Source of the DNA: Desulfobulbaceae bacterium UBA5628
GTDB taxonomy: Bacteria > Desulfobacterota > Desulfobulbia > Desulfobulbales > Desulfurivibrionaceae
Reading direction: 5' to 3'
Assembly: GCA_002421565.1 (NCBI GenBank)
Contig: DIKC01000137.1
Location: 1-27,363, forward strand
Length of the DNA stretch: 27,363 nt
Shown in pieces: positions 1 through 27,363 of the stretch. The translations under genes and the position numbers were made by a program. Within the stretch, counting starts at the first letter, position 1. Every line of letters begins with the position of its first letter. Under the pieces are notes generated by a model. The model had not been told where the DNA came from, made no database searches, and saw nothing but the letters and a program-made list of their open reading frames with translations.

Positions 1-1181
1 CCAACCGCGGCGGCCGTACCTGCCATGCCGCGATTATTTCCCGTGAACTCGGCATTCCCTGCGTGATCGGCACCGGCACCGGCACCGAGAAGATCAAGAA
101 AGGCCAGGACATTACCGTTTCCTCGGCCGAGGGCGAGACCGGCTATGTTTACGAAGGGCTGCTCAAGTTCGAGATCGAACGGATCGATCTCGGCGACCTG
201 CCCAAGACCAAGACCAAGATTATGATGAACCTGGCCATCCCGGAAAAGGCCTTTTCCGAATGCCAGATTCCCAACGACGGAGTGGGGTTGGCCCGTGAGG
301 AGTTCGTGATCAACTCCCACATCGGCATTCATCCCCTGGCCCTCTATAACTACGAGGAATTGAAGAAGTCCGCCGACCCGGAAAAGCAGGCGGTGATTCG
401 GGCCATCGACGAGAAGACTGCCGCCTATACCGACAAGAAGCAATTTTTCATCGACAAGGTGGCGGAAGGAGTGGGCCGGATTGCGGCCGGTTTCTATCCC
501 AAGGATGTCATTGTCCGCCTTTCCGATTTCAAATCCAACGAATACGCCAATCTGGTCGGCGGCACCTTCTACGAGCCGGACGAAGAGAATCCGATGATCG
601 GCTGGCGCGGCGCCTCCCGTTACTACGACCCCAAATACCGTCCCGCCTTTGAGCTGGAGTGCAAGGGATTGCTCAAGGCCCGCAACGACATGGGATTGAC
701 CAACATCAAGCTGATGGTGCCTTTCTGCCGCACTCCCGAGGAAGGCAGGAAGGTTGTCGAGGTGTTGCGGGATTGCGGCCTGATTCAGGGCGAAAACGGC
801 CTTGAGCTGTACGTGATGTGCGAGATCCCCTCCAACGTCATTCTGGCCGACGCCTTTGCCGACATTTTCGACGGCTTCTCAATCGGCTCCAACGACCTCA
901 CCCAGCTTACCTACGGTCTGGATCGCGATTCCGGGCTGCTCTCCGGTATTGCCGACGAACGCCATGCCGCGGTGAAAGAGATGATCAAGATGGTCATCGC
1001 CACTGCCAAGCGGCGCGGCCGCAAGATCGGGATCTGCGGCCAGGGGCCGTCCGACTTCCCCGACTTCGCCACCTTCCTGGTGGAGTGCGGGATCGATTCC
1101 ATGAGTTTGATCCCCGACACCGCGGTTAAGACCCGCTTGGCGGTGGCGGCCAAGGAAAAGGAAATGGGAATCAGCGCCTGA
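1..1181 (+). CDS. ppsA: Phosphoenolpyruvate synthase, 3' part (5' end outside window)
   Basis: PEP synthase (pyruvate, water dikinase) makes PEP from pyruvate and ATP, with AMP and phosphate as by-products, and feeds gluconeogenesis. The reading frame is open from base 3 and stops with TGA at 1179-1181, so the gene enters from the left edge and only the swivelling-domain end and the C-terminal PEP-binding barrel are present. The phosphohistidine motif GGRTCHAAI is visible, with the catalytic His at bases 24-26. The C-terminal signature GSNDLTQLTYGLDRDS and the catalytic-Cys motif GICGQGPSD (Cys at 1035-1037) are both intact. These motifs fit PpsA rather than PPDK or enzyme I of the PTS. The gene converges on thiD and their ends overlap by 11 bp. 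The PpsA regulator ppsR lies about 15 kb downstream on the other strand. Confidence 0.95.
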   Translation, partial: NRGGRTCHAAIISRELGIPCVIGTGTGTEKIKKGQDITVSSAEGETGYVYEGLLKFEIERIDLGDLPKTKTKIMMNLAIPEKAFSECQIPNDGVGLAREEFVINSHIGIHPLALYNYEELKKSADPEKQAVIRAIDEKTAAYTDKKQFFIDKVAEGVGRIAAGFYPKDVIVRLSDFKSNEYANLVGGTFYEPDEENPMIGWRGASRYYDPKYRPAFELECKGLLKARNDMGLTNIKLMVPFCRTPEEGRKVVEVLRDCGLIQGENGLELYVMCEIPSNVILADAFADIFDGFSIGSNDLTQLTYGLDRDSGLLSGIADERHAAVKEMIKMVIATAKRRGRKIGICGQGPSDFPDFATFLVECGIDSMSLIPDTAVKTRLAVAAKEKEMGISA

Positions 1182-2517: not shown

Positions 2518-3930
2518 TCAGTGGACGATGAAATGTTCGGTCCAGATTTCCAGCTTGCCGGTCAGCCGCGACAGGGGCATGGCCTTGGTGGCCTTGCCGG
2601 AGCCGTTTTCCTGGTCGGCAACCGGCTCCGGCACTTCATAGTCCATGATGAATTGTTCCAGCCGGTCGCCGTAGACGGCGATCGCCCGTTTCATGAACTG
2701 GAGCAGTTGTTCGTAGGGAAAGGGTTTGCCGTAAACATCCAGGTGTTGATCGATAAAAATCCTGATTTTGGTCAGCTCGGCTTCGCTCTTGCCGGAGTGG
2801 CCGGGGCAGCCGGTCAGGATCGCCACCGTTTTTTCCTGTAACTCCTGGGTGGTGATGGTTCTTTGTCCGGCCAGGGATTGGAACAGCATCTTGACCGTAA
2901 GCACCATGCCCCTGAGGCCCAGAAAAAAGTCCGTTGCCTGCTCGGCGGCCAGGTAGGATGGGTTGAGGGAGGAGCCGGCTCCGGCGATCCGCTGTTTGAG
3001 GTCGGTGAGCAGGCCGGGCTTGATGGTGTCGTGAAAGAGCTTGATGTTTTTAAGAAAGACCGGCAGCAACTCAAGCTGGCGGAGGGATTTGCCCCGGTAT
3101 GCAAGGGCGGTGAGCAGGTTGCCGAGTTTGCCGATGGTGGCCGGAAAGCGCTCCAGCAGGAGGGGCAGTTCCACGGCCCGCAGTTCTTCCAGTTGCCGGA
3201 TAAAATCCTGTAACTGGTCGATTTCTTCCGGTTGATATTCCTGAAAGTCCTCGACATAGGCCTTGATCTGGTCGGAGGCCTTGATGGCGGTGAAGATCAG
3301 GTTTTGCAGCAGGCGGGTAGCCATTGCCGGCAAGCCGCTGAAGTCGATTTCTTTGAGTTTGCCTTCCAGTTGGCCGGCGCGGGCGGCGCATTGGTCCAGG
3401 GTCGGGGTCTTGGCTTCATTGTTTTCGCCGGTTACAAAACGGTAAAAACGCAGCCCCTGCTCCAGGCTTTCCGGGTTGATTTTGGTCGCCTGCTTGGCCA
3501 GCGGCAACAGGCCCGGCAGGGAAAGAAGACGGCGCAGGTTTTCCTGCCCTTCGATCAGAATCCGGCAGTGTCCTTCCAGGTCGCGGAGGGGTTGTTCCAG
3601 CCCTTCGCATTCTTGTTGCAGGCGGGCCGCCTGGAGTTTGGCGGCTTCCGGTTTGGTTGCCCGGCGGCGAACATCAATGGCCAGATCGCCCAGCTCGTTT
3701 TCCAGCTTTTCCAGTTCGCGCAGGATGGCTTTGATCCCGGCCGTATATTGATCACGGGCGCTCTTGTAATCTTCATTCAGGCCGTATAAACGGAGCTGTT
3801 CGCCGGCCTTGTCGAAGTTTACTTGTAGCCACTGGCTGAGTTGCGGGTTGGTGGTGAGCGGCTCCACCGCCCGGCGGGTGGCGGCCAGCAGCTCGGTTAT
3901 ATGATTGACGCTTGCCTGGGCGGCTTCCAT
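2518..3930 (-). CDS. Unrecognised 470-residue helical protein
   Basis: I do not recognise a family. The product is rich in Leu, Glu, Gln, Lys and Arg, has no signal peptide or membrane segment and looks almost entirely alpha-helical. Heptad-like stretches suitable for coiled coil occur at about residues 75-150 and 240-285. A Leu/Pro-rich segment (SLPGLLPLAKQATKINPESL) lies near 155-175, and the C-terminus ends in a short polar linker followed by a 25-residue tail. Codon use matches neighbouring core genes, and the long uninterrupted frame supports a real gene. It is a single-gene unit, divergent from cbiQ across 138 bp and followed by the slyD promoter. A cytoplasmic scaffold or cell-division-type role would be a guess. 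Confidence 0.75.
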   Translation of the reverse strand: MEAAQASVNHITELLAATRRAVEPLTTNPQLSQWLQVNFDKAGEQLRLYGLNEDYKSARDQYTAGIKAILRELEKLENELGDLAIDVRRRATKPEAAKLQAARLQQECEGLEQPLRDLEGHCRILIEGQENLRRLLSLPGLLPLAKQATKINPESLEQGLRFYRFVTGENNEAKTPTLDQCAARAGQLEGKLKEIDFSGLPAMATRLLQNLIFTAIKASDQIKAYVEDFQEYQPEEIDQLQDFIRQLEELRAVELPLLLERFPATIGKLGNLLTALAYRGKSLRQLELLPVFLKNIKLFHDTIKPGLLTDLKQRIAGAGSSLNPSYLAAEQATDFFLGLRGMVLTVKMLFQSLAGQRTITTQELQEKTVAILTGCPGHSGKSEAELTKIRIFIDQHLDVYGKPFPYEQLLQFMKRAIAVYGDRLEQFIMDYEVPEPVADQENGSGKATKAMPLSRLTGKLEIWTEHFIVH

Positions 3931-4095
3931 GGTTGTTCTTTGGTCTTGCGGTTAGTTGACGGCGGTCGCCGAAGGGCGAAAAAATATCGAAACAGCCCAA
4001 GCTCTATACCAGATTTCGCTGGCAAGGAGGAACTTAAAAAAGTAGGGTGGCGGCGATTATATCAATAATTGCATATGAGGCGGGCAAAGAAGGCG

Positions 4096-4830
4096 ATGGA
4101 GATCATGGGGTTGATGGCCGGCAATTCAGTGGTGCATGGGCTTGATCCGCGTTTGCGGGTGGCAACGGCCTTTGTTTTCGCCCTGGTGACGGCTCTTTCC
4201 CGCTCGATCATGGCCCCGGCCCTGGCCTTGGGAGTTGGTCTGGGGCTGGTCTGGGCGGCTCGCCTGCCGGCGGCAATGGTGGCTCGCCGCTTGCTGGCGG
4301 TCAATCTTTTCATGTTTTTTCTCTGGCTGGTTTTGCCTTTTACCTGGGGCGGCCCGGCCGACTTTGCGGATGGCCTGGGCCAGGCCTTGCTGATTACCCT
4401 CAAGGCCAATGGCATTGCCTGTCTATTTTGGGGGCTGGTGGCGACCATTCCGGTGGGGGTGCTGGGGCATGCCTTGATCCGTTTGGGAATCCCGGCCAAA
4501 CTGGCCCATTTGTTGCTCTTTACCTATCGTTATCTGTATGTTCTTTATGAAGAATACCAGCGGCTGCGGCAGGCGGCCCTGGTGCGCGGCTTTCAGCCCC
4601 GGCCATCCCGTCATGCCTTGCGGACTTACGCCTGGCTGGTGGGGATGTTGCTGGTGCGGGCCTTCAACCGTTCGCAGCGGGTTTACGAGGCCATGCTCTG
4701 CCGGGGGTTCAAGGGGCGTTTCTATTCCTTGGAGCATTTTTCCTTTTCCGGCCGGGATTGCTTGGCCCTGTTCTTTTTCGGCCTTTTTCTGGGCGGTATG
4801 GTGTATGGCGAATGGCTGCTGAATCGTTGA
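4096..4830 (+). CDS. cbiQ: ECF transporter transmembrane subunit (cobalt/nickel), CbiQ/EcfT family
   Basis: This is the membrane coupling subunit of an energy-coupling-factor transporter, linking the ATPase to a substrate-binding subunit. The N-terminus has the family start VVHGLDPRLRVATAF, followed by about five hydrophobic segments. The cytoplasmic coupling region contains EEYQRLRQAALVRGFQ and the motif MLCRGFKGRF, matching the paired Ala-Arg-Gly helices of EcfT proteins. The start is uncertain: ATG 4075 has no ribosome site, ATG 4096 follows AAGAAGG closely and ATG 4105 follows GGAG. I chose 4096 because known relatives begin shortly before the HGLDPR motif. cbiO follows immediately and is translationally coupled. 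CbiM and CbiN, the usual metal-specificity subunits, are not in the window. Confidence 0.85.
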   Translation: MEIMGLMAGNSVVHGLDPRLRVATAFVFALVTALSRSIMAPALALGVGLGLVWAARLPAAMVARRLLAVNLFMFFLWLVLPFTWGGPADFADGLGQALLITLKANGIACLFWGLVATIPVGVLGHALIRLGIPAKLAHLLLFTYRYLYVLYEEYQRLRQAALVRGFQPRPSRHALRTYAWLVGMLLVRAFNRSQRVYEAMLCRGFKGRFYSLEHFSFSGRDCLALFFFGLFLGGMVYGEWLLNR

Positions 4831-4862: not shown

Positions 4863-5573
4863 ATGCTTACCCTGGAACGGGTCGGGTTTGCCTATCCCGG
4901 GCAGGAACCGGTGCTGCGGGAAATCTCCCTTTCTTTGCGCGCCGGTGAAAAGCTGGGCCTGGTTGGCGACAACGGTAGCGGCAAGACCACCCTGCTCCAT
5001 TTGATCATGGGATTGCTGCGGCCGGATGAAGGTCGGGTTATTCTTTTTGGCCGTCCCATGCTGGCGGAGGCGGATTTCGCGCCCCTGCGCGGCCGGATCG
5101 GGCTGCTTTTCCAGGATGCCGACGACCAGTTGTTCTGCCCCACGGTATTGGAAGACGTGGCCTTCGGGCCGCTCAATCAGGGGAAAAGCCGGGAGCAGGC
5201 GGAAAAAATCGCCCGCCGGACCTTGGAGCGGCTCGGGATCGGCGCCTTGGCCGAACGGGTTGCCCATCAACTTTCCGGAGGAGAAAAGAAGATGGCGGCC
5301 CTGGCGGCGGTGCTGGCCATGGAGCCGGCGGTGCTGTTGCTCGATGAACCCACCACCGGCCTGGATTTCCACACCCGTCAGCGGTTGCTTGAATTGCTGG
5401 CGGGGCTCGATCTGGCCATGTTGCTGATCTCCCACGAATACGACTTTCTGGCCGAGGTGACCAAGCAGGTGCTGGTTCTCCGGGACGGCCATATTGTCAC
5501 CGAGGCGGCCGCCCCCCACACCCATGTCCACGTTCATCCCGCCGGCACCCACCCCCATCGCCACCAGCCGTAA
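4863..5573 (+). CDS. cbiO: ECF transporter ATP-binding subunit (cobalt/nickel) with His-rich tail
   Basis: This is the ABC ATPase of the ECF transporter paired with CbiQ. Walker A is GDNGSGKTT, the Q-loop is GLLFQDADDQLFCPTV (the DDQLF context is typical of CbiO/EcfA), the signature is LSGGEKK, Walker B is VLLLDEPTTGLD and the switch His lies in LLISHEYDF. I place the start at ATG 4863, 5 nt after GGAG at 4854-4857, which gives 236 residues. An in-frame ATG at 4812 inside cbiQ would add 17 residues without a good ribosome site. The C-terminus after the ABC domain ends in HTHVHVHPAGTHPHRH, eight His in 16 residues, which suggests binding of nickel or cobalt and favours a metal rather than a vitamin substrate. 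Confidence 0.9.
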   Translation: MLTLERVGFAYPGQEPVLREISLSLRAGEKLGLVGDNGSGKTTLLHLIMGLLRPDEGRVILFGRPMLAEADFAPLRGRIGLLFQDADDQLFCPTVLEDVAFGPLNQGKSREQAEKIARRTLERLGIGALAERVAHQLSGGEKKMAALAAVLAMEPAVLLLDEPTTGLDFHTRQRLLELLAGLDLAMLLISHEYDFLAEVTKQVLVLRDGHIVTEAAAPHTHVHVHPAGTHPHRHQP

Positions 5574-5596
5574 AGCCCGTAAGGTCGCTTACGGCT
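5566..5596 (+). repeat. Inverted repeat between cbiO and the hisI promoter
   Basis: TTACGGCT at 5589-5596 can pair perfectly with AGCCGTAA at 5566-5573 (8 bp), or its inner part with CCGTAAG at 5577-5583 (7 bp, loop GTCG). The arms overlap the cbiO stop codon on one side and touch the -35 box of the hisI promoter on the other. There is no T-run, so this is at best a weak terminator; it could equally be a protein-binding site. Confidence 0.4.
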
Positions 5597-5624
5597 TGAC
5601 AATTTGCTTTGATAAACATATTCT
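5596..5624 (+). promoter_or_regulatory. Sigma70-type promoter for hisI-hisG-engB
   Basis: A perfect TTGACA -35 box (5596-5601), a 17-nt spacer and a TATTCT -10 box (5619-5624) are present. Transcription should start near 5631, only about 3 nt before the first ATG of the hisI frame (5634), which makes the choice of hisI start an open question. Confidence 0.7.
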
Positions 5625-5633
5625 GCCGCCGGT

Positions 5634-6158
5634 ATGGAGTTGATCTGCGAAAAATACCGGGAAAAGGAAGCGGCGGCCATTGCCCGTTGCCGCCGCCCCC
5701 GCGAACATTGTAAATTCCGTTCGTCCTGCATGATTAATTTCCTGACTCGGGAAAACGCCAAGCGGAAAGAAGAGGAAAACGCGCCGATGCTCGATTTCAG
5801 CAAGGGAAGCGGCCTGCTCCCCGCCATTGTTCAGGACCATGCCAGCAATGAGGTACTGATGCTGGCCTATATCAACGAAGAGGCGTGGCGACAAACCCTG
5901 GTCACCGGCAAGGCCCATTACTGGAGCCGCTCGCGTAACAAGATCTGGCTCAAGGGGGAAACATCCGGCCATATCCAGGAAATCAGGGAGATTCTGGTGG
6001 ACTGCGACGCCGACACCGTGGTTTACCGGGTGGAGCAGTTGGGCGGGGCGGCCTGCCATACCGGCCATCGTAGTTGTTTTTACCGCCGGGTGGCGGGCAA
6101 TGAATTGGAAGTGATCGCAGTGCCGGTTTTTGATCCAGCGGAGGTTTATCGGAAATGA
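5634..6158 (+). CDS. hisI: Phosphoribosyl-AMP cyclohydrolase with Cys-rich N-terminal extension
   Basis: HisI opens the purine ring of phosphoribosyl-AMP in histidine biosynthesis, a zinc- and magnesium-dependent reaction. The catalytic domain starts near residue 52 ([16 protein letters not shown]) and contains [18 protein letters not shown], the metal-binding DCDADTVV and the Cys pair in [15 protein letters not shown]. It is the stand-alone cyclohydrolase, with no HisE domain. About 51 extra residues precede the domain and carry Cys5, Cys19, Cys26 and Cys32 (core [14 protein letters not shown]). If ATG 5634 is used, the mRNA would be almost leaderless. The alternative ATG 5787 gives a normal-length 123-residue enzyme with a leader of about 155 nt but only a distant purine-rich site. 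The stop overlaps the hisG start by 4 bp. Confidence 0.88.
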
Positions 6159-21064: not shown

Positions 21065-22690
21065 TTAACCGAGAATCGCCTTCAAATCCTCGTCCGGGGT
21101 GGTGATCGCCTTGATCCCGAAATTCTTGACCAAGACGTCCAGGACGTTGGAGGTGACAAAGGCGGGCAGACTCGGCCCGAGGCGGATGTCCTTGATTCCC
21201 AGGTGGAGCAGGGTCAGGAGAATCGCCACCGCCTTTTGCTCGTACCAGGAAAGCACCAGGGAAAGGGGCAAATCGTTGACCCCGCACTCAAAGGCATTGG
21301 CCAAAGCCACCGCGATCTGAATCGCGGAGTAGGCGTCGTTGCACTGGCCCACATCGAGTAGCCGCGGAATCCCGCCGATGTCGCCAAGTTTCTTGTCAAA
21401 GAAGCGGAACTTGCCGCAGGCCAGGGTCAGCACCACGCAATCCTGGGGCACCTTCTCCACGAACTCGGTGTAGTAGTTGCGTCCCGGCTTGGCGCCGTCG
21501 CAGCCGGCCACCAGGAAAAAGTGCCGAATCTGCTTGTTCTTGACCGCCTCGATCACGGCCCCGGCCACTCCCATCACGGCATTGCGGGCAAAGCCGACCA
21601 TCACCGAACCATGATCGGTATCGGCCGGGAAGCCGGGCATGGCCAGGGCCTTGTTGATCACCGGGGTGAAATCCTTGTCCTTGATGTGGGTAACCCCCGG
21701 CCAACCCACCAGACCGGTGGTGAAGAGGTTGGCCTGGTAAACTTCCTGCGGCTTCTGGATGCAGTTGGTGGTCATCAGAATGGCGCCGGGGAAGACGGCA
21801 AATTCCTTGTGCTGGTTCTGCCAGGCCGTGCCGTAATGGCCGTAAAAATGGGGATACTTCTTCAGTTCCGGGTAGCCGTGAGTCGGCAGCATTTCGCCGT
21901 GGGTGTAAACATTGATTCCCTTGCCCTCGGTCTGCTTGAGAAGCAGCTCGAGGTCCTTGAGATCGTGGCCGGAAACCAGGATCGCCTTACCCTTCTTGGC
22001 GCCCAGAGGAACCTCGGTCGGCACCGGATGGCCGTAAGCGCCGGTGTTGCCGGCATCGAGCAGTTCCATGGCCCGGAGGTTGGTTTCGCCGCACTTCAAG
22101 ACCAGCCCGACCCAATCCTGAAGGCCGAGATCGTTGCGGAGGATGGCGGCCAGCCCTTCCTGGATAAAGGCGTAAACCTTGTCGTCTTCCTGGCCGAGAA
22201 TCTTGGCGTGATCGGCATAGGCGGCCACGCCCTTAAGCCCGAAAAGCAGGGTGTGCTTGAGGGACTGGATATCCGGGTTGGCGGGATCGGGATGGATTTC
22301 CACCGCCTGCCCCTGCTTGACCAGACCGGCGAGATCAGCGGCCGGGGTAAAGTTGGCGGCTGCCTCGCTGAAATCAACCTTGCCGCCGGCTGCCTTGACC
22401 TTGCCCTTGAGCTGTTCGCGCAGGGCCACCGCCCGCTTGATCAAGGCGATAAAGCGCTCCGGATCAAAATCAACATTGGTAAGGGTGGAGAAGGTCGCCT
22501 CGCAGGTAAAAATATTGGCCTCCGGGTCGCTCACGCCCACCTTGCGGCCTTCCACCGCGTAGAGGGAAAGTCCTTGCAGGGCGTGGACCAAAAGATCCTG
22601 CAGGGCCGCCACCTCCGGGTTCTTGCCGCAAACGCCCATTACCGTGCATCCCTGTCCCTTGGCCGTTTGTTCACATTGATAACAAAACAT
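21065..22690 (-). CDS. hcp: Hybrid cluster protein (Hcp, nitric oxide/hydroxylamine reductase)
   Basis: Hcp reduces hydroxylamine in vitro and is best supported as a nitric oxide reductase in anaerobic nitrosative stress. The N-terminal cluster motif is Cys3/6/15/21 (C-x2-C-x8-C-x5-C, MFCYQCEQTAKGQGC), the arrangement of strict anaerobes. Ligands of the hybrid cluster lie in KCGETN, THGEMLPTHGYP, MTTNCIQKP, VAGCDGAKPGRNYYTEF, LACGKF and DVGQCNDAYSA. ATG 22690 follows AAAGGAGG by 8 nt and gives the usual N-terminus and 541 residues. A second in-frame ATG at 22768 also has a good site (AAGGAG, 9 nt) and would add a basic 26-residue extension. Three genes follow on the same strand. Confidence 0.95.
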   Translation of the reverse strand: MFCYQCEQTAKGQGCTVMGVCGKNPEVAALQDLLVHALQGLSLYAVEGRKVGVSDPEANIFTCEATFSTLTNVDFDPERFIALIKRAVALREQLKGKVKAAGGKVDFSEAAANFTPAADLAGLVKQGQAVEIHPDPANPDIQSLKHTLLFGLKGVAAYADHAKILGQEDDKVYAFIQEGLAAILRNDLGLQDWVGLVLKCGETNLRAMELLDAGNTGAYGHPVPTEVPLGAKKGKAILVSGHDLKDLELLLKQTEGKGINVYTHGEMLPTHGYPELKKYPHFYGHYGTAWQNQHKEFAVFPGAILMTTNCIQKPQEVYQANLFTTGLVGWPGVTHIKDKDFTPVINKALAMPGFPADTDHGSVMVGFARNAVMGVAGAVIEAVKNKQIRHFFLVAGCDGAKPGRNYYTEFVEKVPQDCVVLTLACGKFRFFDKKLGDIGGIPRLLDVGQCNDAYSAIQIAVALANAFECGVNDLPLSLVLSWYEQKAVAILLTLLHLGIKDIRLGPSLPAFVTSNVLDVLVKNFGIKAITTPDEDLKAILG

Positions 22691-22819
22691 TTTTCCTGCC
22701 TCCTTTTGTTGCTGGGGTTGTGGGGAAAATATCCGCTGAAAGCGGGAAATCGCCTTTTGCCAAACCATAATCCTGATCTCCTTGTTTAGGGGGGTTCGAT
22801 TGCTGCCCAATTTCGATCC

Positions 22820-22861
22820 ACCATAACCGCCGCCAAAGAGAAGCACCTTGACTTAAATCAA
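22820..22861 (-). promoter_or_regulatory. hcp promoter with FNR/CRP-family-type binding site
   Basis: The 14-bp sequence TTGACTTAAATCAA (plus strand, 22848-22861) has the TTGA-N6-TCAA form of FNR-family sites. On the minus strand a TATGGT -10 box occupies 22825-22820, which predicts a start at 22813 and puts the site centre at -41.5, the class II activator position. There is no good -35 box, consistent with a need for an activator. HcpR or FNR are candidate regulators; neither gene is in the window. Confidence 0.65.
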
Positions 22862-23416: not shown

Positions 23417-24013
23417 ATGCTTAACTATATTTTATTGATTTGCGGCGCTTATCTGCTGGGGGCAATCCCCTTTGGCTTACTTTTCGGAAAACTGGCGGGG
23501 GTGGATGTGCGGAGCAGCGGCAGCGGCAACATCGGGGCCACCAACGTGGGCCGGTTGCTCGGCCGTAAACTGGGGCTGCTCACCCTGGCGGCGGACACCG
23601 GCAAGGGGGTGCTGCCGATGCTGCTGGCCGCCTGGCTGATGCCGGCCGGGCCGGAACGGGAAGTGGTAATGGCGCTGGCCGGCGGGGCCGCCTTCCTCGG
23701 CCACCTCTTTCCAATTTATCTGAAATTCAAGGGGGGAAAAGGGGTGGCCACCGCCCTGGGGGTTTTTCTTTATCTCGCTCCCCTGGCGGCGGCCCTTGAT
23801 CTGCTGATCTTCGCGGCGGTGGTTTACAACTGGGGCTATGTCTCGCTGGGATCGCTGACCGCCGCCCTCCTGATGCCGGGCCTGGTCTGGCTGATCTCCG
23901 GCTCCCTCCCCCTGACCTTGCTGGCCCTGCTGATCGGGGCTCTGATCTGGTTCAAACACCGGGACAACATCACCCGCCTGCTCAACCAGGAAGAAAAGAG
24001 CTGGAAGAGCTAA
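23417..24013 (+). CDS. plsY: Glycerol-3-phosphate acyltransferase PlsY
   Basis: PlsY transfers an acyl group from acyl-phosphate to glycerol-3-phosphate, the first step of membrane phospholipid synthesis. The 198-residue protein has about five membrane segments and the family motifs GSGNIGATNVGR (near residue 34) and LKFKGGKGVAT (near 109); the third conserved region is around the WFKHRDNITRLL segment. The start is ATG 23417, about 10 nt after GGGGAG; the open frame reaches far upstream through guaD on the opposite strand, which is not meaningful. The 3' end overlaps that of the convergent ppiD by 4 bp. Confidence 0.95.
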   Translation: MLNYILLICGAYLLGAIPFGLLFGKLAGVDVRSSGSGNIGATNVGRLLGRKLGLLTLAADTGKGVLPMLLAAWLMPAGPEREVVMALAGGAAFLGHLFPIYLKFKGGKGVATALGVFLYLAPLAAALDLLIFAAVVYNWGYVSLGSLTAALLMPGLVWLISGSLPLTLLALLIGALIWFKHRDNITRLLNQEEKSWKS

Positions 24014-25470
24014 AAATCCGGACTGACCTCAACCTTGCCCTGGGCCTGCAACAAGGTTACCCAGGCGTCAACCAGGGCCAGTTGCTTGGCCTGGAGGAGT
24101 TGGGCGCCAATGGCCTCGGCCTGGCGCTTGAACTCCTCCTCGGGGGCCGGCCGCCGGTCGGCCAGACGGACAATATAATGCTCCGCGCCCACCGAACTTA
24201 CCGTCTCGGCCAGGGGAGCGGCCGCGGTCAACTGCAAAGCAGCCTGGGCCACCGGGGCCGGCAAACCGGCTTGGGCCACCGTCTGGCGAGAAAACCAGGC
24301 CGACTCGGCGGGACTTTTGCCGACCTTACGGGCGGCAGCGGCCAATTCCTCGCCGCCCTTGATGGTTGCCAACAAACCAGCGGCCGCCTGGCGGGCCAGC
24401 TCCCCGGCCTGCTCGGCCCGGAAATCTTCCTCCACCCGTTGCCGCACCGCGGCCAGTTCCGGCACCTTCGGCTCCTGCCGTTCCTTGACAAAAATCACCC
24501 CGTAGCCGTCCCGAATCTCGACGATGGAGCTTAACTCCCCCTGCCGCAACCGGAAGGCGGTATTAAGCAGGGCGGGATAAGAAGCCAGATCGGCCGGCGA
24601 CTTGTCCCGGCTGAAAAACTCGCTCTTTTGCAGCGGCAGATTCAGGGCCTGGGCGCCTTGTTCCAGACCGCCCAGGGTGATGATCTTTTCATAGGCCTCA
24701 CTGGCCTGGCTGAAGGCCTGCTGCTTGGCCTCGCTTACCTCCGGGGAACTATGAGCGCCCTGGGAGAAAATGAGATACTCCAGCCGCACCCGGGGCTCGC
24801 TGCGATAGTTATCGGCCCGTTCCTGAAAAAATTTATTCAGGGCCTCTTCCTCGATGGTTACCTGGCTCCGGAAATCATCGGCCTTAAAGGTAAGATAGTT
24901 GAGCTTGATCTGATCATGGTCGCGGCCGAACCATTCCCGCACCTCATCGTCGCTCACCTGGGCAAAGGCGGCGAGATGGCGGAGAATTTTGCTCCGTTGC
25001 AGATCGACCCGGATGGAATTTTCAAACTCCTGGGGACTGAGGCGGGAAAGGGCCAGGGTCTGCTTGTAGCGGTCCAGGTTGAAAATCCCGTCCTGACGGA
25101 AGGTTTCCATGCCATGAATCATCGCCTGCACTTCCTCGTCGCTCACCAACAAACCGGCCTGTAGCGCCCCCTGCCGAAGCAAGGTTTCCTGGATCAACTG
25201 ATTGAGCACCTGCTGCCTGACCCCCAGGGATTCCAGCAGCCCGGCCGGGATGACCCCGCCCAGTTGTTCCCGGTACTGGCCGATAGCCTGTTCGTAAAGA
25301 CGCTGAAATTCCCGGCCGGACACCGGCTGGCCGTTGACCGTGGCCACCGTGTCGGGGCCGCCGCCATCGCCGCCCATCTTGGGCAGCCAGAAGATGAAAA
25401 CCAGAATAATGATGACGATCGCCGCCTGGATGATCGGCGACTTGGCTTTACGACGGAGCAAATCAAGCAT
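24010..25470 (-). CDS. ppiD: PpiD-like periplasmic peptidyl-prolyl isomerase/chaperone
   Basis: A membrane-anchored periplasmic folding factor at the Sec exit. The N-terminus is LRRKAKSPIIQAAIV with one membrane segment at residues about 13-30, then a SurA-type N-terminal chaperone domain (ATVNGQPVSGREFQRLYEQ). A parvulin-like region is at about 225-350 (RVRLEYLIFSQ and GYGVIFVKERQEPKVPELA), and a second SurA_N-like helical part lies towards the C-terminus. It is 486 residues, somewhat shorter than E. coli PpiD. The parvulin region is divergent, so chaperone rather than isomerase activity is likely. The gene has its own promoter (25518-25546) and a GAGGAA ribosome site. Confidence 0.9.
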   Translation of the reverse strand: MLDLLRRKAKSPIIQAAIVIIILVFIFWLPKMGGDGGGPDTVATVNGQPVSGREFQRLYEQAIGQYREQLGGVIPAGLLESLGVRQQVLNQLIQETLLRQGALQAGLLVSDEEVQAMIHGMETFRQDGIFNLDRYKQTLALSRLSPQEFENSIRVDLQRSKILRHLAAFAQVSDDEVREWFGRDHDQIKLNYLTFKADDFRSQVTIEEEALNKFFQERADNYRSEPRVRLEYLIFSQGAHSSPEVSEAKQQAFSQASEAYEKIITLGGLEQGAQALNLPLQKSEFFSRDKSPADLASYPALLNTAFRLRQGELSSIVEIRDGYGVIFVKERQEPKVPELAAVRQRVEEDFRAEQAGELARQAAAGLLATIKGGEELAAAARKVGKSPAESAWFSRQTVAQAGLPAPVAQAALQLTAAAPLAETVSSVGAEHYIVRLADRRPAPEEEFKRQAEAIGAQLLQAKQLALVDAWVTLLQAQGKVEVSPDF

Positions 25471-25517: not shown

Positions 25518-25546
25518 ATCCTAATTTTTTCCGGCCCCGCCGTCAA
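25518..25546 (-). promoter_or_regulatory. Sigma70-type promoter for ppiD
   Basis: On the minus strand, TTGACG (25546-25541), a 17-nt spacer and TAGGAT (25523-25518) lie between the toxin stop codon and ppiD, predicting a start near 25511 and a leader of about 40 nt. It means ppiD does not depend on transcription from the toxin-antitoxin module upstream. Confidence 0.6.
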
Positions 25547-25559
25547 TCCCTTTCCCATG

Positions 25560-25847
25560 TTATTTGTTTCTTTCCGCGGCCTTTTTATAGACTGAATTTT
25601 TTTCTCTTTTTCCCACTGCGATAACTAAAACAAACAACTCGTTATCGACAATCTCATAAACTAGCCGATAGCCACTGGCTCTCAATTTAATTTTATAGTG
25701 GTTTTCAAATCCAGAGAGTTGGCTGCCAGGGATATGAGGTTGCTGAAGACGCTCTGTTAATTTCTTTTTGAATTGAGTTTGGATTGAATTGTCAAGCTTC
25801 TTCCATTCCTTAAGCGCTGTAGGAAGAAATTTTAGTTTATAAATCAT
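25560..25847 (-). CDS. relE: RelE/StbE-type toxin
   Basis: A 95-residue RelE-superfamily toxin, expected to cleave mRNA on the ribosome. The N-terminal helices include MIYKLKFLPTALKEWKKLD, and the central part is QLSGFENHYKIKLRASGYRLVY, with the typical basic residues. The C-terminal strand is ELFVLVIAVGKREKNSVYKKA. The length is normal and no damage is seen. It overlaps the antitoxin gene by 11 bp. The pair is clearly AT-rich compared with ppiD and other core genes, a sign of recent acquisition. Its place next to an attC-like site fits a cassette-borne module. Confidence 0.92.
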   Translation of the reverse strand: MIYKLKFLPTALKEWKKLDNSIQTQFKKKLTERLQQPHIPGSQLSGFENHYKIKLRASGYRLVYEIVDNELFVLVIAVGKREKNSVYKKAAERNK

Positions 25848-26088
25848 CGATATCTACTTCCACGGCTGAAATTTTTTCATTTTGGCGTTCATTGACTATC
25901 ACACCTAATTGGTAATCTTCAATTTTATCCATTAATGTCTCGTAAGTCTCAGCCGGGATCAAATATGCTGTTGGTTTGTTATGGTTGAGAATGGCAATAG
26001 GCTCTCCTCCAGCTTGCTCAATGAGAGCAGAAGGGTTCTTCTTTAATTCTGATATGCTTGCTGAACAACCTGCTAATACTGATTCCAT
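25837..26088 (-). CDS. Phd/YefM (StbD)-type antitoxin
   Basis: An 83-residue antitoxin of the Phd/YefM fold. The DNA-binding dimerisation domain contains CSASISELKKNPSALIEQAG and EPIAILNHNKPTAYLIPAETYE, the hallmark of the family. The acidic C-terminus (EKISAVEVDIDDL) is the toxin-binding tail. The start is ATG 26088, 6 nt after GAGGTG. The promoter upstream has an operator-like repeat (26113-26140), consistent with autorepression by the antitoxin and the complex. Confidence 0.92.
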   Translation of the reverse strand: MESVLAGCSASISELKKNPSALIEQAGGEPIAILNHNKPTAYLIPAETYETLMDKIEDYQLGVIVNERQNEKISAVEVDIDDL

Positions 26089-26171: not shown

Positions 26172-26232
26172 GGTTAACGTCCGCCCTCTGCGGCGGCGCG
26201 ATAGCGACGTACGCAGCAGGGCATGGTTCGGC
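26172..26232 (-). other. attC-like site downstream of the methyltransferase gene
   Basis: Read on the minus strand the 61-bp site starts with GCCGAAC (R'' box, 26232-26226) and ends with GTTAACC (R' box, 26178-26172). In between, TGCCCT-G-CTGCG pairs with CGCAGAGGGCG, leaving one unpaired G in the left arm. That is the extrahelical base expected in the L'' arm of an attC site, and it fixes the orientation along the methyltransferase gene. The ends do not fit the RYYYAAC/GTTRRRY consensus exactly. Confidence 0.65.
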
Positions 26233-26234
26233 TT

Positions 26235-26930
26235 TCATTTTTCACAGATGTAGACTGATAGGAAGCCTTCTTCTCTCTTCTCTATGATCGTCAATCCGTT
26301 ACGAGCAATCATTCCTTCAAGAATCCAATCCAGAGTCGAAAACTCGGTCTTGATGTGCTGGACTGTTTGCTCTGCCACATCGTCACCTGCTTGAGACCTA
26401 ACACCTTCTATTACCACTCGGAAGAAGGCATCGTAATCATCAGTTGCGGAAGGGAATATAACATCCCGAAGATATAACCTCCCTTGAGATAGAAGACTGT
26501 TTGCGATTACTGAAATGGCTTTCAACTTCCAAAAATCCGGGAGGTGATGTAAGGCCAGTTGAGTTACAATACCATCAACTGGATGATCAGGACGAAAGCC
26601 TGACAGGAAGCCGCCGTGTGCAAAGGTGACATTCGTAATACCGCGCCTTTTCGCCTTTTGACGGGCATACTCAAGCATCGCCGGAGAAACATCCGTGGCG
26701 TAGACATGCTTGACCGTTCCTGCAAGGGTGATCGCACATTCTCCCGTGCCGGTACCGATCTCCCATACGGTTGAGTTTGCCGACAGGTTCAGAGCCTTTG
26801 CGATATCAGCCGCCTCGACATCTGTATTGCGAAGTTTCTGCATCCGTTCGTCATACGCCGCAACCTCGCTTTCGTCACGGTAGTCAGTTCCGACCTGGGC
26901 CGTCTCATCATATTGCCATGGATAGTTCAT
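26235..26930 (-). CDS. Class I SAM-dependent methyltransferase, likely cassette gene
   Basis: A 231-residue Rossmann-fold methyltransferase. Motif I is VWEIGTGTGECAI (about residues 55-67), followed by the acidic motif II in YATDVSPAMLEYAR and the motif IV region VTQLALHHLPDFW. The start MNYPWQYDETAQVGTDY and segment LYLRDVIFP are familiar from unassigned methyltransferases; the substrate is unknown, and a small molecule is as likely as a macromolecule. Codon use is more mixed than in neighbouring core genes. The gene sits alone between two attC-like sites, its stop 3 bp from one and its start 17 bp from the other, filling a 775-bp unit, the size and layout of an integron cassette. Confidence 0.85.
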   Translation of the reverse strand: MNYPWQYDETAQVGTDYRDESEVAAYDERMQKLRNTDVEAADIAKALNLSANSTVWEIGTGTGECAITLAGTVKHVYATDVSPAMLEYARQKAKRRGITNVTFAHGGFLSGFRPDHPVDGIVTQLALHHLPDFWKLKAISVIANSLLSQGRLYLRDVIFPSATDDYDAFFRVVIEGVRSQAGDDVAEQTVQHIKTEFSTLDWILEGMIARNGLTIIEKREEGFLSVYICEK

Positions 26931-26946
26931 CTGTTTGTCTCTATCA

Positions 26947-27003
26947 GCCGAACGAACTAAGAGTTTTTGCGGCGCGTAGCCGCCGCCAAAACTCCTGTTG
27001 AAC
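26947..27003 (-). other. attC-like site upstream of the methyltransferase gene
   Basis: Read on the minus strand the 57-bp site starts with GTTCAAC (fits RYYYAAC, 27003-26997) and ends with GTTCGGC (26953-26947). Inside, GAGTTTT-G-GCGGCG faces CGCCGC-A-AAAACTC, a 13-bp stem with one G/A mismatch and a 6-nt loop. The right-hand box GTTCGGC is the exact complement of GCCGAAC at the far side of the methyltransferase gene, as expected when both derive from one circular cassette. The spacers beside the stem are uneven (2 and 7 nt), which is atypical. Confidence 0.65.
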
Positions 27004-27363
27004 TTAACCGCGGGGGCGGGCCGAACTGGTTGGAGTTTTATCGGCGGATTTCCGTGAACATCAGTCGATGATATGGGGAATGGCTGGCGAGGTCAAGCAA
27101 TAAATATCCGCATGTCAGGAGAATGCCGACCTTTGCTGTGCCCCGGCCCTGAATCCGGCCGGGTAACGGAGAGGGCATCCGGGGCATTTCCCGGTAATCA
27201 GGCGCAATTTTCCGTTTACGGAGAATTGCGTTTTCCAAAATCCGCGTCTCATTTTCGCAGCCATCCGGGCGGTAATCGGCCGGATTCATCATGGGGGCGA
27301 TCTCGCCGGTTTTTTCCATTGGCGACGCGGAACAACAGGGTGCTTCCGGGTTTTCAGTGGGTA
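27004..27363. other. Right-end region without a convincing gene; structured repeats
   Basis: No clear gene is seen in these 360 bases. One 93-codon frame on the minus strand (27319-27038) lacks a recognisable domain or ribosome site and has a Pro/Gly/Arg-rich middle that looks non-coding. Two hairpins are present: CCCGGCC/GGCCGGG at 27142-27163, and a 12-bp stem (one G-T pair) with a TTTA loop at 27203-27230. The octamer CGGTAATC occurs at 27192-27199 and 27270-27277. If the attC reading is right, this is the 3' part of another cassette or non-coding array DNA. Confidence 0.4.

Follow-up and report, generated by a model that had tools for sequence, protein, structure and literature searches.

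Gene content of the locus

The window analysed here, a stretch of 27,363 bp, represents the entire contig C186 of the source genome (G000), an assembly of 1.80 Mb in 197 contigs that is 60.7% complete. On the minus strand at the right end of the window lies a gene predicted to encode a methyltransferase, located between two short attC-type sites and followed by genes predicted to encode an antitoxin, a toxin and the chaperone PpiD. In the reading direction of this strand the features are:

27068-27096, minus strand: promoter-like site TTGACC-17-TATCAT, directed at the cassette (10 of 12 matches, weak)
27004-27363, minus strand: remainder of the putative upstream neighbour, ended by the contig end, without a convincing gene
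26947-27003, minus strand: putative attC of the neighbouring upstream cassette, GTTCAAC...GTTCGGC, 57 bp, homologous to a site on contig L024
26178-26952, minus strand: predicted gene cassette, 775 bp from crossover base to crossover base, R' and R'' matching at 7 of 7 positions
26235-26930, minus strand: methyltransferase, class I SAM-dependent, 231 aa (Pfam PF13649, 3.2e-15)
26172-26232, minus strand: the cassette's own putative attC on the downstream side of the gene, GCCGAAC...GTTAACC, 61 bp, top match of the covariance models R1 and R2 in the window
25837-26088, minus strand: Phd/YefM antitoxin, 83 aa (PF02604, 6.9e-14)
25560-25847, minus strand: RelE/ParE toxin, 95 aa (PF05016, 6.2e-13; TIGR02385, 2.3e-9)
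24010-25470, minus strand: ppiD (SurA-type chaperone), conserved chromosomal flank, with a match in 35 of 36 genomes including the own genome

According to the AlphaFold2 model (pLDDT 90.3) the 231-aa protein has the class I methyltransferase fold. Class I methyltransferases (among them 3hnr, AtmM and YcgJ) were its nearest solved folds in the structure search and also in the sequence search, and based on these fold neighbours the modelled enzyme is predicted to act on a small molecule. It has the fold and the SAM-binding half in common with YcgJ, BT9727_4108 and AtmM (PDB 1xxl, 3hnr and 6uv6), but at a sequence identity of 20-28% their functions are not transferable. The top-scoring NCBIfam family was the corrinoid protein-associated methyltransferase CpaM (NF043040, 64.4 bits), which was the best family for all ten relatives tested as well (57-85 bits). 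As this is far below the family cut-off of 180 bits, the identification as CpaM was rejected; the cassette also contains no gene for a corrinoid protein. In a PADLOC scan of four window proteins the methyltransferase matched mad2 with 74 bits over residues 25-158 of 231.

The open reading frame at 27038-27361, upstream of the putative cassette, had no match in Pfam, NCBIfam or PADLOC. The promoter-like site in this stretch is regarded as weak since four such sites were found in the region compared to 2.8 expected; the cassette may be transcribed from it (27096-27068). The 23 bp at window positions 27339-27361 recur without mismatch at the extreme end of contig C54 (23071-23093), where they sit in an ATPase-like gene as judged by eye. 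This identity may be an assembly effect.

On the other side of the cassette, comparison with related genomes revealed an altered gene neighbourhood. In 10 of 11 loci of relatives polA is located at most 0.85 kb from ppiD and in the same direction. In the window no polA was detected in the 1.9 kb before ppiD, and the phd-relE genes together with the cassette occupy the stretch up to the contig end. The block formed by the toxin-antitoxin pair and the cassette thus takes the place of the relatives' polA beside ppiD. In the own genome polA resides on contig C99 and precedes a tyrosine recombinase gene and an IS91-type transposase gene (L173, G000:C99:9800-13544), where C99 ends. The gap between C186 and C99 could provide room for an integrase.

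A promoter-like TTGAC...TAGGAT motif precedes ppiD in the window (25518-25546, minus strand) and, as compared by eye, recurs in three of seven relatives' loci (L029, L030, L035) and in a looser form in two more (L032, L034). Based on the recurrence of this motif, the conserved chromosome seems to start just past the stop codon of relE. The toxin-antitoxin pair may or may not be a cassette too; by eye, no attC was seen after it, between the toxin gene and ppiD.

The two attC-type sites

An integron cassette consists of one gene with its own attC site at the 3' end, and the R'' and R' boxes at its ends match. The attC site folds into a hairpin whose 5' arm has an additional base, and the crossover takes place at G^TT. 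The locus shares all of these features with the cassettes of class 1 and other integrons: a single gene with a 3' attC, the R''/R' match, the extra base in the 5' arm and G^TT.

Re-reading of the sequence confirmed the positions and lengths given for both sites in the original prediction (26947-27003, 57 bp; 26172-26232, 61 bp). GTTCGGC of the upstream site and GCCGAAC of the downstream site are exact reverse complements at 7 of 7 positions, as had been claimed, and reckoning from the crossover bases results in the same cassette of 775 bp at 26178-26952. The internal inverted repeats described for the sites correspond to one main hairpin in each, and the unpaired base reported for the downstream site is present in the 5' arm. 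Compared to shuffled sequences the hairpin of the upstream site reached z-values of -3.3 and -4.0 on its two strands, and that of the downstream site was weakly better than the shuffles (z of -2.4 and -1.6).

The box match was evaluated by a scan for single hairpins bordered by an R''-like and an R'-like box, combining sites on the same strand at a distance of 200-2000 bp to pairs. The box pattern was loosened after a stricter version had given the upstream site alone, so that the R' box GTTAACC passes, and the controls were run with the loosened pattern. In the window this loosened scan found a single pair of attC-like hairpins on the same strand, and the boxes of this pair match at 7/7. Other loci comprising 1,115,785 bases, some of them with integrases, contained 41 single sites and six pairs, and none of the six pairs had a box match of at least 6/7. 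Sixty first-order Markov copies of the window, 1,641,780 bases in all, yielded 36 sites, none of which formed a pair. As positive controls, six stretches of class 1 integrons gave six pairs, all with a match of at least 6/7, which originated from three of the stretches, the other three giving none. Beside the integrases of relatives the hand-made scan found few sites, and a covariance model did better.

Two covariance models were used as well, both built with the window left out: R1 from 11 class 1 attC sites and R2 from 27 matches (15 from class 1 and 12 from relatives). Their E-values are rough due to a short calibration. The original prediction had proposed such a check for both sites, and it held for the 61-bp downstream site. 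The stretch 26173-26232 (minus strand) ranks first in the window with R1 (16.2 bits, E 0.06) and with R2 (19.9 bits, E 0.008), the latter also with default filters, and in the whole 1.8-Mb genome it is the best of three R2 matches, with a modest E-value of 0.54. Its R2 score falls just below the limit of 20 bits which PMC9892861 applied with that study's own models. The 57-bp upstream site, however, was found neither by R1 nor by R2. A further R2 match in the window at 22223-22274 (14.9 bits) was dropped since a long open frame (21065-22846) covers it.

Applied to 28 loci, of which 27 contain or adjoin the integrase of a relative, R1 returned 18 matches with E-values of at most 10 in 12 loci. 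By hand comparison with the integrase coordinates 17 of the 18 are in the orientation expected for cassettes, the exception being a partial match (E 6.5). With default filters and the same E-value limit R2 had no match in 60 loci of more distant methyltransferase relatives (624,556 bases) and none in 31 other loci (106,453 bases). The Rfam search of the window and the BLAST search of the 61-bp site against plasmids also gave no match. Four class 1 loci contain a stretch that matches 14 bases of the downstream attC (26172-26234) exactly (E 0.57). In two of these loci (L155 and L157) the stretch adjoins the annotated intI1, and it may be part of attI1.

The upstream site is backed by homology. 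Among the loci compared its best match was L024 2168-2220 (53 bases at 90.6% identity, E 3.8e-15). The locus L024 comprises a whole contig from a genome of the same order, which harbours a full integron integrase gene at 4881-5819 (470 bits) as well as two R1 matches on the strand of the matching site (E 3.5e-5 and 5.1). Between the window and L024, 48 of the first 53 bases of the site are identical, compared to 19 of 64 bases past G^TT and 29 of 60 bases before the site. Such a drop in identity at the crossover base is expected from integrase recombination, and the match to a site of a contig that also encodes an integrase supports the assignment of the 57-bp site as a probable attC. A 12-base block, ATAAAACTCCAA (window 27030-27041, minus strand), precedes the 57-bp attC by equal distances in the window and in L024 (upstream of 2220); by eye, pairing between this block and the GGAGTTTT arm of the attC could form in competition with the hairpin.

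Distribution of the methyltransferase and its putative cassette form

A protein search with the methyltransferase yielded 2252 proteins, 120 of them listed, including metagenome proteins with 81-90% identity (P0001-P0014). No close copy was found in 26 other genomes of the family, the best protein by E-value being 31% identical. Of 395 phylum genomes drawn evenly from a larger group, four including the own genome had a match at 1e-45, and the other three proteins are 39-41% identical. From a scan of GTDB contigs the best 80 of at least 573 loci were taken. Among these, 16 loci (L052-L066, L068) share 57-80% identity with the window's protein and carry 12 phylum labels; the closest of them, L052 from Kiritimatiellae, reaches 80%. 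The protein encoded at L053, in a Verrucomicrobia MAG, is 74% identical at the amino acid level. A tree that combines 33 of the best 80 loci with the window groups the latter with L052 (97/88) and then with L053 (99/97). Taken as a whole, the phylum labels show slightly more clustering on this tree than after shuffling (22 changes compared to 25.2). No occurrence of the methyltransferase in viral contigs was confirmed, and the 32 plasmid records are all below 60% identity.

From this distribution we infer that the cassette gene was probably passed between distant bacterial phyla. The evidence for this spread is good but no proof, since the phylum labels were taken from the titles of MAGs, binning errors readily affect short cassette contigs, and there is the slight clustering of labels on the tree.

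The original prediction also proposed a search for the same methyltransferase with attC sites in other genomes, and such cases were found: L053 has the same cassette ends, and the genes of L057 and L063 are surrounded by attC matches on the same strand. In L053 GTTCGGC is located 16 nt before the start codon and GCCGAAC 2 nt after the stop codon, at the same spacing as in the window. Among the best 80 of at least 573 loci, L053 is the only one with a 7/7 box pair at the ends of the gene. A further 17 box pairs at 6/7 in 13 other loci, and three more in L053, were regarded as background due to their scattered distances.

Over the same best 80 of at least 573 loci R2 had seven matches. L057 and L063 contributed three apiece, every one in the orientation of the gene, and the seventh was in L053. 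The last of these (185-412, minus strand) was dropped since it spans 228 bases inside the gene. Without filters R2 gave 15 matches in five loci (E 0.006 to 9), with six on the gene strand and one on the other strand in L063, three and one in L057, one and one in L053, and none and two in L055. The R2 matches at 5089-5147 and 7061-7123 in L063 flank its methyltransferase gene, with a toxin-antitoxin-like pair also located between them. Since this pair intervenes in L063 and the methyltransferase genes of L057 and L063 showed no box pair that matches at their ends, both loci represent attC neighbourhoods and not exact single-gene cassettes. In L052, the closest relative among these loci, no attC was detected beside the methyltransferase gene. 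L063 too has a gene for a RelE-type toxin, located before its methyltransferase gene (5432-5680); the toxin is 26% identical to the RelE of the window.

An integron integrase above the cut-off was detected in six of the 11 genomes asked among those of the best 80 loci. The genomes of L053, L057 and L063 hold one each, and together they contain 29 R2 matches with E-values of at most 1, several per genome. These observations allow for the reading that the methyltransferases form a clade of small-molecule modifying enzymes adapted to life in cassettes, passed by integrons among about 12 phyla with the ends kept (GTTCGGC and GCCGAAC at equal spacing) and the inner part of the attC diverging. We propose this only tentatively and consider it rather unlikely.

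Probable origin as an integron cassette

The methyltransferase gene at 26235-26930, placed between attC-type sites with matching boxes, is very probably an integron gene cassette of 775 bp, likely inserted by an integrase. This interpretation is supported by the covariance model match of the downstream site, the L024 homology of the upstream site, the R-box match, the identical cassette ends in L053, the lack of a close copy in 26 other family genomes and the position of the block in place of polA. In the proposed mechanism the bottom strand of each attC would fold as a hairpin, the integrase would cleave R' at G^TT, and the array would take up the circular cassette TTCGGC...GCCGAAC...G. The recombination was presumably catalysed by IntI, and the cassette may still be mobile. 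That the methyltransferase gene is an ordinary transferred one and the hairpins on its two sides are unrelated or due to chance (terminators, for example) is highly improbable: each site alone is unremarkable, with 41 similar single sites in the 1.12-Mb control, and many genomes carry the gene family without attC-like boxes at the gene's ends, but no box match as good occurred in the controls, the upstream site is homologous to one on an integrase contig with identity dropping at the crossover base, and L053 has identical boxes and spacing.

An integrase had been expected to the right of the window, which could not be confirmed. The contig as assembled shows two attC sites as the visible array without an integrase nearby and breaks at 27363, 360 bp past the last site, and no recombinase in the 60.7%-complete genome reaches the cut-off for integron integrases (TIGR02249). 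Such an integrase was detected above this cut-off in 22 of the 38 genomes searched, the own genome being among the 16 without. The tyrosine recombinase on C99 was rejected as integron integrase since its gene is located directly before the IS91-type transposase gene; it scored 112 and 74 bits in two pieces compared to the cut-off of 265.

The lack of an integrase above the cut-off in the assembly may also indicate an integrase-free remnant (CALIN), in which the cassette and its sites persist after the loss of the integrase and the gene is no longer mobile. In agreement with this, R2 revealed no other convincing attC in 1.8 Mb, and the region has been rearranged, given the IS91-type element with its own tyrosine recombinase after polA on C99, a contig which ends inside the element. 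However, with the genome 60.7% complete, the contig ending so close to the last site and integrases present in 22 of 38 genomes, we regard the loss of the integrase as a serious possibility but the less probable one.

The IS91-type element may itself have brought the block, in which case the attC sites would be passengers and integron recombination would not have been involved. On C99 its transposase and tyrosine recombinase genes closely follow polA, and L024 carries an element of this type at 2622-4388, with the integrase on one side and the matching attC on the other. Yet the right 360 bp of the window have no convincing match to either element and the ends of the cassette coincide with the attC crossover points, so this scenario seems quite improbable.

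Insertion as an integron cassette would represent a known kind of gene capture and not a new mechanism. The locus differs from class 1 cassettes in that none of the recombinases of its genome exceeds the integrase cut-off and that the class 1 attC model gives a low score to one site and fails to find the other. Both integrons in Desulfobacterota and attC sites common to several phyla are described in PMC9668308. Methyltransferase genes have been found in cassettes or attC clusters before, as here: an RNA-methyltransferase from environmental cassette arrays (Nield et al. 2004, as cited in PMC3856429) and predicted DNA methyltransferases in attC clusters of phages (PMC9892861). By these descriptions the published enzymes are RNA- or DNA-methyltransferases, whereas that of the window has a class I fold of the small-molecule kind. 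Many integron cassettes outside clinical bacteria are without known function, which is the theme of PMC3856429.

An attC model derived from class 1 cassettes misses a site that is backed by homology. The locus provides one cassette gene that may be traced between phyla with its ends intact, and since the cassette is located at a polA-ppiD junction that is conserved in relatives, both the transfer route and the enzyme are testable.
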